Shown here: positions 37,118 through 42,730 of the stretch, piece by piece | Layout: each line of letters begins with the position of its first letter | Position numbering within the stretch: position 1 is the stretch's first letter | DNA from: a bacterium | GTDB lineage: Bacteria > Desulfobacterota > DSWW01 | Assembly (NCBI GenBank): GCA_028277985.1 | Contig: JANQFG010000031.1 | Location: 26,721-90,720, forward strand | Direction: 5' to 3' | Length of the DNA stretch: 64,000 nucleotides | Made by a program: the position numbers and the translations under genes | Notes under the pieces: model-generated | The model's input: only the letters and a program-made list of their open reading frames with translations | Databases searched by the model: none | What the model was told of the DNA's origin: nothing

Positions 37118-38383
37118 ATGAGCTCGAAGACATTGCCCTTAACCGGAGAAATGCTGGCCGCCATCCTGGAGAAGCATCCCACGCCCTTCCACCTCTATGA
37201 CGAGGCGGCGATCCGAAGGAATGCCCGCGCCCTGACCGAGGCGTTTTCCTGGAACCGAGGCTTCAAGGAATACTTCGCCGTGAAGGCGGCGCCGAACCCG
37301 TACCTTCTCAAGCTGCTCGCGAAAGAGGGCTTCGGTGCTGATTGCAGCTCTCTGCCGGAGCTTGTGCTTGCGGAGAAGGTCGGCGTTGTGGGCGAGGACA
37401 TCATGTTCACGTCCAACGACACCCCGCCCGAGGAGTTCCAGAAGGCGAAAGAGCTCGGGGCTATCATCAATCTGGACGATGTCTCGCACATTCCTTTTCT
37501 GGAGGCGTGCGCGGGCCTTCCGGAGACGATCTGTTTTCGATACAACCCCGGCCCCCTCAAGAAGGGGAACGTGATCATCGGTCATCCTGAAGAGGCGAAG
37601 TACGGCTTCACCCGGGAACAGCTCTTCGAGGGCTACCGTACCCTTCGTGACAAGGGGGTCAAGCGATTCGGCATCCACGCCATGGTCGCCTCGAACGAGC
37701 TCGATCCGATGTATTTCGTCGAGACCGCGGAGATCCTGTTCAGCCTCGTCGTGGAAATCTCCCGGGAGTTGGGCATTCGATTCGATTACGTGAACATCGG
37801 CGGAGGTCTGGGCATCCCCTACCGGCCTGAAGAGGAGCCTGTCGACTTGCAGGTGGTGAGCCAGGGGATACGTGGAAGGTACGAGGAAATCATCGAAGGG
37901 AACGGGTGCGGCCCCATCGATCTCTACATGGAATGCGGAAGGCACATCACCGGCCCGTACGGCTATCTGGTGGCCCGGGTGCGGCACATCAAGAAGACGT
38001 ACAAGAACTTCGCCGGGTTGGATGCCTGCATGGCCGACCTGATGCGACCGGCCATGTACGGCGCCTATCACCACATCACGGTCATCGGGAAGCAGGAAGC
38101 ACCCCACGACGTGATGTACGACGTGACCGGGTCTCTTTGCGAGAACAACGACAAGTTCGCGATCGACCGCAAGCTTCCCGAGCTCGAATCAGGGGATGTC
38201 GTGGTCATTCACGATTCGGGTGCACACGGCCACGCCATGGGATTCAACTACAACGGCAAGCTCCGGTCCGCAGAGTTGCTCCTCCGTGAGGATGGTACGG
38301 TGGAGCAGATTCGAAGGGCGGAGACCGTTGAAGATCACTTCGCGACCCTGGATTTCGACCGCCTGGAGGGCTTTTCCGTCTAG
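37118..38383 (+). CDS. lysA: Diaminopimelate decarboxylase
   Basis: A 421-residue PLP enzyme of fold type III converting meso-diaminopimelate to lysine. The PLP lysine is in YFAVKAAPNP (K56). The glycine-rich phosphate loop is VNIGGGLGIPYRPEEEP. The substrate-site block is MECGRHITGPYGYLVA, and the C-terminal dimer-interface motif is GSLCENNDKFA, with Cys and Glu contributing to the neighbouring active site. Some members of the family act on arginine, ornithine or carboxynorspermidine, but the CENND motif fits DapDC. The next gene starts 2 bp after the stop. Confidence 0.9.
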   Translation: MSSKTLPLTGEMLAAILEKHPTPFHLYDEAAIRRNARALTEAFSWNRGFKEYFAVKAAPNPYLLKLLAKEGFGADCSSLPELVLAEKVGVVGEDIMFTSNDTPPEEFQKAKELGAIINLDDVSHIPFLEACAGLPETICFRYNPGPLKKGNVIIGHPEEAKYGFTREQLFEGYRTLRDKGVKRFGIHAMVASNELDPMYFVETAEILFSLVVEISRELGIRFDYVNIGGGLGIPYRPEEEPVDLQVVSQGIRGRYEEIIEGNGCGPIDLYMECGRHITGPYGYLVARVRHIKKTYKNFAGLDACMADLMRPAMYGAYHHITVIGKQEAPHDVMYDVTGSLCENNDKFAIDRKLPELESGDVVVIHDSGAHGHAMGFNYNGKLRSAELLLREDGTVEQIRRAETVEDHFATLDFDRLEGFSV

Positions 38384-38694: not shown

Positions 38695-38741
38695 AACGGG
38701 GAGTCAAGAAACCGGAAAAAAGGGGATCTCAGAAAGGAGGC

Positions 38742-39497
38742 ATGCCCGTGAAGAACAAACTCATGCTCGGCGTTTGGCGGCTCATGCTGTCGATTCCCCC
38801 CTTTTTGTGGGAGAAGGAGGTCGAAAAGAGCAGGAAGAAGATCCGGGATGAGCTGGACTTCATGTCCCCGGACCACCGGAAGGTGCATCATTGTGCGGTC
38901 AGGGAGCTCCCCAGGGTGGGCAAGCCCATGTCGCCCGAGTTCATTGCAGGCGAGATGGGCCTTTCAACGGACCGGGTGATCGAGATTCTGGACGATCTCG
39001 AGAAGCACATGACCTTCCTGTTCAGGAACGAGGAGGGTGCGGTCGTCTGGGCCTATCCCGTCACGGTGGACAAGACACCTCACCACCTGACATTCAGCAC
39101 GGGAGAGCAGCTCTACGCGGCCTGAGCTGCGGACGCGATTGCGACGCCCTTCGTGCAAGGGCAATTGAGAGGAGAATCGTTGTCCGTCGTGATCGGGACG
39201 GAGTGTGCTCATTGCTCCGAGCCGATGCACCTCAAAATCGACAGTCAACTCAACAGCAGGGTCCGTGAGGAGGGAGCCGATCCGGTCGTCTTCATCCCGC
39301 AGGTGGACTTCAAGGCCTTGGAGGACCCCAGCATTATCGACTCCTTCTGACACGAGTGTGTATTCTTCTGGTCAGAAGAACACGCACGGGAACATAGAAA
39401 GAAGACCCACCGAGTGACGGGCCAGTACTTCACATCACAACAGATGGTGAAGCTTACGAAACTCATTCAAAGCGCACTTTTCGGGTTTGACCTTTGA
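38742..39497 (+). CDS. MerB-like (organomercurial lyase family) protein with two in-frame UGA codons, probable selenoprotein
   Basis: The frame starts at the ATG at 38742 with AAAGGAGG upstream and continues, without shift, through TGA at 39123-39125 and TGA at 39348-39350 to a final TGA at 39495-39497 (251 residues). Residues 1-115 are the MerB-type winged-helix region (PMSPEFIAGEMGLSTDRVIEILDDL). GEQLYAA-U128-AADAIATPF aligns with MerB LYxWC96ALD99, and the Asp three residues on is kept (D131). TECAHC follows. IIDSF-U203-HECVFFWSEEHARE aligns with MerB SFC159CHVHFF. So both catalytic Cys positions are UGA. Each UGA is followed by a SECIS-like hairpin. A coding-quality reading persists for 48 residues after the second UGA. 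A normal pipeline would stop at 39125. Selenocysteine insertion is inferred; two nonsense mutations at exactly these sites is the alternative. Confidence 0.85.
39138..39165 (+). promoter_or_regulatory. SECIS-like hairpin 1, after UGA at 39123
   Basis: The stem is CCCTT (39147-39151) with AAGGG (39157-39161), loop CGTGC, plus outer pairs ATTG (39138-39141) with CAAT (39162-39165) and a 5-nt bulge. The loop begins 26 nt after the UGA and has G as its second base. Both fit the bacterial SECIS rule as I know it (loop 16-37 nt downstream, G in the first two loop positions). Confidence 0.7.
39356..39385 (+). promoter_or_regulatory. SECIS-like hairpin 2, after UGA at 39348
   Basis: A perfect 7-bp stem TTCTTCT (39363-39369) with AGAAGAA (39374-39380), loop GGTC, and an outer stem GTGTG (39356-39360) with CACGC (39381-39385). 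The loop starts 19 nt after the UGA and its first two bases are G. This is a second element matching the bacterial SECIS pattern. Confidence 0.75.
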
Positions 39498-40573
39498 AGG
39501 ACAAGATCCTCGTCATAGGCGGATACGGGCAGGTGGGGCGGGTCGTTTCCGAGGCGCTGGCTGAGCGATATCCGGGACAGGTGTTTGCGGCCGGCCGGCG
39601 ACTGAAGGAAGCGCAGGCTTTCTCGGAAGAGACCGGGGGCCGGGTCCTGCCCCTGCGCATCGATCTCCTCTCGCCCCGTGACAGTCGCGCGGATCTGGAG
39701 GACGCCAGAGTTGTCGTCATGTGTGCAGAGTCGGACGACGAGAGCTTCCCGCGTGCCTGCATCGAGGCGAAGAGCCACTACGTAGATGTTTCCGCCACCC
39801 ACGAGCACATCCTCGAGGTCGAGACCCTTCGTGACTTCGCCCGGGAACAGGGTGTTGTGGCGGTAATGAACGTCGGGCTCGCACCCGGGCTCACGAACCT
39901 GCTCGCACGGTTCGTGAAGGAACGCCTGGAAGAAGTGGAGCGTATCGACATCGATATCCTTCTCGGTCTCGGAGAAGCGCACGGCCTGCACGGCATGCAG
40001 TGGACCCTGGAACGGGTCGGCCGGCCCTTCTCGGTGATGACGGCTCGGGGACCGGTTTCGGTGCGAGGGTTCATGGATCCGAAGCAGACCCGGTTCCCGG
40101 GTCCCTACGGACAAAGGACCACCTATCGCTTCGACTTCTCGGACCAGCACGCCCTGCCGGCAACCCTGGGAGTTCCGGAAGTGTCGACCCGGATGTGCTT
40201 CGACTCCAAGTGGGCGACTCTGCTCTTTGCGATGATGGCGAAGACACGCCTCGCCAGGGTTACGGAAAGGTTGGGCGCCGCCCGGGTGAATGCTGCCTCC
40301 GGTCTCTTTCGTCTGGGCAGTGAGGATTGCGTCGTCAGGGCGGAAGCCTTCGGAAGAAAGCCAAACGGTCCGTCATCGGCGTCCGCCGTGATTGCCGGCG
40401 AGCGCGAGGTGCGTGCCACCGGGCTGGTGGCCGGCTACGTGGCCGAGAGGCTCTACGAAGAGGCCCTCCCGGCGGACGTCTTCCACATCGAGCAGGTTTG
40501 TGAGCCCCGGCCCGTCTTTGACCGGCTGGAGCCGCATGGGTATCGATTCGAGTTTTCCGACGGTGAAGGGTAG
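39494..40573 (+). CDS. Saccharopine-dehydrogenase-like NAD(P)-binding protein
   Basis: A 359-residue Rossmann protein of the saccharopine dehydrogenase/LYS9-like family, with [25 protein letters not shown] at the N-terminus, [15 protein letters not shown] and [20 protein letters not shown] in the middle. The only start that keeps the nucleotide motif is a TTG at 39494, which overlaps the final TGA of the MerB-like gene (TTGA). Translation is therefore probably coupled to ribosomes that have passed both upstream UGA codons. The substrate is unknown; many such proteins are trans-acting enoyl reductases or carboxynorspermidine/saccharopine enzymes. Just after the stop, yciH begins. Confidence 0.82.
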
Positions 40574-40574
40574 G

Positions 40575-40943
40575 ATGATGGGCGCCGGAAAAGATGGGGA
40601 AAGCCGTGTCGTATACTCCACCGAGCACGGCAGGATGTGCCCGGCTTGTGGCAAGCCAGCTGCGAAATGCAGGTGCCGCAAGGCCGTAGAACTTCCTGCG
40701 GGGGACGGCATCGTTCGGGTTGGAAGAGAGACGAAGGGGCGCAAGGGAAAGGGCGTGACCGTGATCACAGGGCTTCCCCTGGATCCGGACGGTCTCCGGG
40801 ATCTCGCCAAAGAGCTGAAGCGGAGATGCGGCACGGGAGGAACCGTGAAGGAGGGCGTGATCCAGATCCAGGGTGATCACCGGGATCTGCTGGTGGAAGA
40901 GCTAAAGGCACGAGGCTATGCAGCCAAACGTACGGGGGGCTAG
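40575..40943 (+). CDS. yciH: SUI1/YciH-family translation initiation factor
   Basis: A 122-residue protein with a Cys-containing N-terminus ([14 protein letters not shown], a possible zinc site) and the eIF1/SUI1 fold at about 55-122: [44 protein letters not shown]. The start is one of two tandem ATGs (40575, 40578) directly after the previous stop. YciH affects start-codon selection in bacteria that have it. It is encoded in a run of short co-directional genes with tag downstream (7-bp gap). Confidence 0.9.
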
Positions 40944-42400: not shown

Positions 42401-42730
42401 ATGGCATGGGTGTTCCTTGCGATCGCCGGTCTGTTCGAGTGCGGGTGGGCGATCGGCTTGAAATACACAGAAGGCTTTTCCAGGCTCTGGCCGTCGATCT
42501 TCACGATCGCCGCGATGATCGTGAGCTTCCAGTTGCTTTCCCTGTCCATGAAGTCGATACCCGTGGGAACGGCCTACGCGGTGTGGACCGGGATCGGTGC
42601 CGTGGGCGTGGCACTGCTCGGCATGGCCCTTTTCGGGGAGTCCAGGGAATTCATGCGGATCGTGTGCATCCTGCTCATCGTGTCCGGTGTGATCGGCCTG
42701 AGGGTGTTCGCCGGGGGGAGCAGCGGATGA
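42401..42730 (+). CDS. sugE: SMR-family guanidinium exporter (Gdx/SugE type)
   Basis: A 109-residue, four-helix small multidrug resistance protein. The conserved membrane Glu is in [24 protein letters not shown] (E13). The K-x-x-x-G-F-x-R segment and the W-T-G-I-G motif place it in the Gdx/SugE subgroup, which exports guanidinium, not in the EmrE-type Qac group. A guanidine riboswitch, common upstream of such genes, is not recognisable here. Its stop codon overlaps the next start (ATGA). Confidence 0.9.

Follow-up and report, generated by a model that had tools for sequence, protein, structure and literature searches.

We identified a gene of the MerB (organomercurial lyase) family in which UGA codons stand at both catalytic cysteine positions, in 64,000 nucleotides of a Desulfobacterota draft genome (GenBank assembly GCA_028277985.1, contig JANQFG010000031.1, positions 26,721 to 90,720). 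This whole stretch is called the window below, and coordinates count from its first base. Our reading, to which we give a probability of roughly 0.7, is that the UGAs at the positions of Cys96 and Cys159 of MerB are both translated as selenocysteine (Sec), and that the protein likely cleaves carbon–mercury bonds with two selenolates and a conserved Asp. The initial annotation, made from the letters of the window, had proposed a candidate double-Sec MerB-like protein; the proposal is supported by alignment, by conservation of both sites, by the hairpins that follow them and by SelA, SelB and SelD in the genome, with a gap at the UCA-anticodon tRNA for Sec (tRNA-Sec) in this draft.

A MerB-fold protein with UGA at both catalytic cysteines

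Starting at ATG 38742, the plus-strand frame has just two interruptions, TGA 39123 and TGA 39348, before it closes at TGA 39495, exactly as initially annotated. Numbered from that ATG, the first UGA is residue 128 (LYAA-U-AAD) and the second is residue 203 (IIDSF-U-HECVFF). The frame stood, whereas the start originally assigned to it is probably not the true one: an AGGAGG ends 7 nt before GTG 38748 and 1 nt before ATG 38742, and many homologues begin near the residue equivalent to the GTG, so GTG 38748 is more likely to be the start. The protein would then have 249 residues, with UGAs at 126 and 201. The next gene starts at TTG 39494, overlapping the terminal TGA, an arrangement consistent with translation continuing to 39495.

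With TGA read as Cys, the protein scored 60.9 bits against Pfam MerB (PF03243; cut-off, 27), and structural alignment over 205 residues places it in the MerB fold. The first UGA aligns with Cys96, the second with Cys159 and Asp131 with Asp99, in agreement with the annotated replacement of both catalytic cysteines and retention of the Asp; Cys117 is also kept. Like MerB (PDB 1s6l, 3f0o and 3f2f) and MerB2 (5c17), the protein thus has the PF03243 domain, the fold, Asp99 and Cys117 but, unlike them, UGA replaces both catalytic Cys codons, and identity in the structural alignment is about 16–20%.

Conservation of the two UGA codons

We scanned one genome per species for related loci, using patterns that touch neither UGA codon, and kept the best 80 of 93 relatives (53 of the 80 entered alignment A2). 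TGA occupied both sites in 79 of the 80, at 45–64% protein identity; the remaining locus (L089) has TGC followed by TGA. None of the 80 contains an in-frame stop besides the two sites, and all retain the Asp of the UxxD motif (Asp131). A decaying pseudogene or a sequencing error, in which two nonsense changes struck a former MerB, has nothing in its favour beyond the two stops themselves; conservation of both TGAs across such divergence, with no third stop, led us to reject it as vanishingly improbable. Record names of the relatives span Desulfobacterales, Chloroflexi/Anaerolineae, Acidobacteria, Nitrospirae, Zixibacteria, KSB1, Acidimicrobiia and others; these records are metagenome bins, so single taxonomic placements may be wrong. 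Among 395 genomes of the window's phylum, 23 had some match, comprising 14 full-length genes, all with two TGAs, and nine weaker matches; the same scan did not find the gene in either same-genus draft genome.

Protein databases record these genes differently. One search listed all of its 102 matches and another 120 of 321, giving 168 listed homologues in all, and the residue counts over these 168 describe database proteins, with codons not read. Gene callers cut the genes at residue 127 or 202: 67 of the 102 end at one or the other, 61 just before site 1 and six just before site 2 (the latter with Cys at site 1 in four, Trp in one and Arg in one). In a further 31 of the 102, both sites are Trp, the outcome expected of gene calling with code 4, and in proteins such as P0002–P0017 this looks like an annotation artefact. 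Across the 168, site 1 is Cys in 43, none of which covers site 2. P0113, with Ser at site 1, is the only listed homologue with Cys at site 2, and P0034 has Asp and Ser. Other residues at site 1 in homologues that lack site 2 are Arg in one (P0032) and Trp in four; P0024 and P0122 have Trp at site 1 and end at 202. The Cys anticipated in homologues was therefore seen at residue 128 in these 43, at residue 203 in P0113 and, at the codon level, as the TGC of L089.

These counts also bear on a variant genetic code, in which UGA would be read as Trp or another ordinary residue. The database proteins with two Trp speak for such a code, but none of the 80 loci examined at the DNA level has TGG at either site, Cys predominates among natural replacements (43, against the four Trp and one Arg) and in-frame TGA is confined to the two sites, each with a hairpin. 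We therefore rejected this reading and regard its probability as negligible. A selenium-controlled switch would instead make use of the first stop, releasing without selenium a 127-residue winged-helix protein with a regulatory role of its own; we consider this very unlikely, although less so than a variant code or a pseudogene.

In a tree of 81 chosen rows with an arbitrary root, well-supported branches force at least seven changes between Cys and Sec labels within the window family. The plasmid MerB L183 joins that family by long branches, and we draw nothing from the join. A plasmid search with both MerB families described here returned remote matches only, at <60% identity.

Conserved hairpins follow each UGA codon

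In 81 genes we folded the 46 nt that follow each codon and looked for a hairpin whose loop starts 14–30 nt downstream and has a G in its first two bases. Such a hairpin was found in 83% of genes at site 1 and 91% at site 2 and, in the window, the apical loops begin 26 and 19 nt downstream of the respective codons, confirming the annotated hairpins with an early-loop G. By the share of genes forming a hairpin, sites 1 and 2 rank 8 and 5 of 228 codon positions, and all higher ranks lie within four codons of the same sites; by mean folding energy corrected for G+C content they rank only 17 and 11.

Conservation of synonymous codons, given the amino acid, peaks at codons 135–140 and at 208, 209 and 211–213 of 233 columns. 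All 11 top columns fall inside the two hairpins (chance, 1e-12 for 24 hairpin-window columns, the windows having been set with the hairpins already known). Because one scan pattern spans residues 134–142, amino acids there are partly conserved by construction, which should not hold for synonymous codons; none of the scan patterns covers hairpin 2. The loop CGUGC is present in 81 of 81 genes and GGUC in 80. In hairpin 1 the inner six pairs are formed in 477 of 486 cells and the outer pairs are weaker, one being formed in 57 of the 81 genes; in hairpin 2 the seven upper pairs are formed in all 567 cells. Over the full pair sets, 83.5% (hairpin 1) and 94.9% (hairpin 2) of cells are paired, compared with 28–62% when the sets are slid, and changes on both sides of a pair are present (for example, at one hairpin 2 pair, where two genes replace T-A with C-G). 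In the window sequence alone, hairpin 2 is more stable than shuffled sequences over 46 nt (z = −2.88), as is hairpin 1 when excised on its own (19 nt; z = −2.52). The RNA hairpins are conserved beyond what the protein needs. A chance placement of two UGAs on the catalytic codons, each with a hairpin, had been judged improbable, and this judgement holds because nearly all loci share both UGAs and no codons of the gene show stronger synonymous constraint than those of the hairpins. We predict that both hairpins are Sec insertion sequence (SECIS) elements (Table 1); a search of the window with Rfam at the gathering threshold gave no match, and no curated SECIS family reached that threshold.

Table 1. 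Features of the double-UGA gene in the window.
Feature	Position	Strand	Detail	Basis
MerB-family gene read through two UGA codons	38742..39497	+		Frame; Pfam MerB; 80 related loci
AGGAGG, putative ribosome-binding site	38735..38740	+		Sequence; start chosen from spacing and homologue starts
UGA 1, predicted Sec	39123..39125	+	MerB Cys96 position	MerB alignment; TGA in 79/80 loci, TGC in 1/80
Hairpin 1 after UGA 1, predicted SECIS	39146..39162	+	6-bp stem; loop CGUGC 39152-39156	Folding, conservation
UGA 2, predicted Sec	39348..39350	+	MerB Cys159 position	MerB alignment; TGA in 80/80 loci
Hairpin 2 after UGA 2, predicted SECIS	39356..39387	+	Upper stem 39363-39380; loop GGUC 39370-39373	Folding, conservation
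Terminal UGA	39495..39497	+	Overlaps TTG start (39494) of next gene	Sequence

Selenocysteine machinery

The genome that holds the window encodes SelA, SelB and SelD (593, 372.4 and 391.6 bits, each above its cut-off). All 14 genomes of the phylum with a full-length gene have SelA, a co-occurrence that is uninformative because SelA exceeds the cut-off in 355 of the 395 genomes. The SelD gene itself (L016; G000:C19:9880-10803) is interrupted in frame by a TGA, within the N-terminal motif GGUACK, and its product is a predicted selenoprotein.

A second double-UGA family and SaoL

A search with the model of SaoL, a MerB-like organometallic lyase (NCBIfam NF040728), also recovered other MerB-like genes with TGA. 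One lies in the same genome (L158:1828-2577; G000:C137:131227-131979), scores 77 bits against Pfam MerB and falls below all NCBIfam cut-offs. UGA stands at each of its two catalytic positions, in the motifs UxxE and U-S-T-M, and is followed both times by a hairpin. Together with 16 further loci it forms a family with no NCBIfam name which, like the window family, carries two UGAs at the same positions, hairpins and GU at loop positions 2–3 but, unlike it, has UxxE rather than UxxD, forms a separate supported branch of the tree and is only 24% identical (L158 against the window protein). The 17 loci were picked from rows showing one TGA, so that TGA at the first site reflects selection and at the second does not; all 17 have TGA at both sites and no other stop. 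Their second hairpin has the GGUC loop in all 17, with one pair being T-A in three loci, C-G in 12, T-G in one and unpaired in one. Of 314 database homologues 120 were listed; among these, both sites are Trp in 51 and both are Cys in three (P0187, P0212 and P0235), and 64 carry Cys at site 1 and leave site 2 uncovered (61 ending just before it); with site 2 likewise uncovered, site 1 is Ser in one and Trp in one.

SaoL is a selenoprotein, as we predict for the window protein, and shares with it a MerB-like sequence and a UGA where MerB has Cys159 (seen in L150 and L151, both above the NF040728 cut-off); it differs in having Cys at the first site, a CU motif and one Sec. The window protein reached 43 against the NF040728 cut-off of 140, and neither of its UGAs is preceded by Cys.

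MerB-like selenoproteins are already known. An 'Alkylmercury lyase MerB-like protein' is listed in PMC9312934 and an 'Organic mercuric lyase MerB2' in the selenoprotein list of PMC7435645; the passages concerned name them as selenoproteins, as we predict for the window protein, and give no number of Sec. A 2026 review has a SaoL/MerB-like entry with one Sec, and searching its text for MerB turns up that row alone (PMC13188914). The main texts of PMC5029168 and PMC2398784 contain no mention of MerB. Within the open-access literature searched, parts of it in excerpt, we found no description of a MerB with two Sec, or of two families that carry Sec at each catalytic position, in line with the initial annotation, which knew of no such MerB-like protein.

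Proposed mechanism and its weak points

In MerB, Asp99 protonates the carbon. Mercury is bound more tightly by selenolates than by thiolates, a property that would be well matched to anoxic, sulfidic habitats, in which sulfur ligands carry the methylmercury. In established MerB chemistry, Cys96, Asp99 and Cys159 surround the mercury and thiols remove Hg(II) at the end (PMC4525700). In the proposed scheme, SelB would direct Sec to each UGA by way of the two putative SECIS elements. By analogy with MerB, the organomercurial would then pass from its thiol or sulfide complexes to one selenolate, the carbon would leave with a proton from Asp131, and the Hg(II) product would stay on the second selenolate. 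A cellular thiol, sulfide or selenide would then release Hg(II), and in anoxic cells sulfide or selenide may serve. Product release could be the weak point of this scheme.

Several points weigh against a double-Sec mercury lyase. Hg(II) might be bound so tightly by a bis-selenolate that turnover fails. In the window sequence alone, the 46-nt fold of hairpin 1 is not more stable than those of shuffled sequences (z = 0.47), its outer pair 18–38 is formed in only seven of 81 genes, and L089 retains the hairpin despite TGC at site 1. The residues of P0032, of P0024 and P0122 and of P0034 are left unexplained. Unlike MerB, the protein misses the NCBIfam MerB equivalog cut-offs (58.3 against 193 and 50.1 against 200), and no merA-type gene occurs among the ten neighbours scanned, merA and hgcAB not having been searched across the genome. 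Finally, of the machinery named in the initial annotation, selA, selB and selD are present, whereas a UCA tRNA-Sec was not found in this draft using Rfam, two patterns or a same-genus tRNA-Sec as a BLAST query. A tRNA scan of the 64-kb window and the 20-kb stretches around SelB, SelA and SelD likewise gave no tRNA. The only match above the tRNA-Sec family cut-off was a 47.2-bit tRNA with a GCA anticodon according to ARAGORN (L002:1501-1592; G000:C46:27654-27745). The UCA tRNA-Sec is present in both same-genus genomes and in ten of 13 other genomes carrying the gene, and an assembly gap likely explains its absence here (291 contigs; 95.69% completeness). Contamination of the assembly is 7.85%, and the sel genes lie on contigs other than that of the window. 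As a separate observation, L135 in genome G088 is likewise a tRNA whose GCA anticodon reads Cys codons and which Rfam scores as tRNA-Sec (56.7 bits).

The missed cut-offs would also fit a real double-Sec protein of MerB fold that does not act on organomercury and instead cleaves other organometal(loid)s, binds metal or performs redox chemistry. The name given to its selenoprotein relative SaoL is organometallic lyase and not mercury lyase, the sister family has Glu in place of Asp, and no mer gene recurs beside the 81 genes, whereas each of three plasmid MerBs that we fetched lies beside merA. On the other hand, all catalytic triad positions and MerB Cys117 are kept in sequence and the fold is that of MerB. 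We judge this alternative unlikely, at about one-third the weight of the double-Sec mercury lyase.

If the double-Sec mercury lyase is real, Sec at both catalytic ligands of a metal–carbon lyase would be a new use of selenium, for metal capture and protonolysis as opposed to thiol redox chemistry. With two predicted SECIS elements within about 270 nt, the gene would be a natural model for double UGA recoding. Surveys of MerB that screen by conserved cysteines (PMC9948709 and PMC12997803) would likely miss these genes, and one names mer-independent methylmercury loss in anoxic settings as a separate pathway (PMC12997803), part of which would become directly testable. More speculatively, and on balance doubtfully, many phyla may run a selenium-based MerB with Sec at both metal-binding residues and without merA, passing mercury to sulfide or selenide. 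Such a route would demethylate methylmercury in anoxic sediments while staying hidden and unannotated, because gene calls end at the first UGA.

Genomic neighbourhood

BLAST clustering, which can miss remote relatives, revealed no recurring operon partner, with no neighbour cluster in more than nine of 81 loci, window included. A regulator-like gene lies upstream on the same strand in 17 of the 80 loci (75 of which have ≥700 nt upstream), nine belonging to one cluster and eight to another; Pfam assigned one member of each to MarR (nine loci) and MerR (eight loci), respectively (for example, L024:7469-7915 and L022:2981-3559). The window gene has neither regulator upstream. Its scanned neighbours include a decarboxylase, a saccharopine dehydrogenase-like protein, SUI1 and a methyladenine glycosylase, among others. 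The SUI1 protein, a bacterial homologue of this translation factor (40392-40943), and a small multidrug resistance family protein (42401-42730) lie downstream. Flanking the gene are a pyridoxal phosphate (PLP)-dependent decarboxylase (37118-38383) and the saccharopine dehydrogenase-like gene (39494-40573), a pair that is reminiscent of carboxynorspermidine synthesis.
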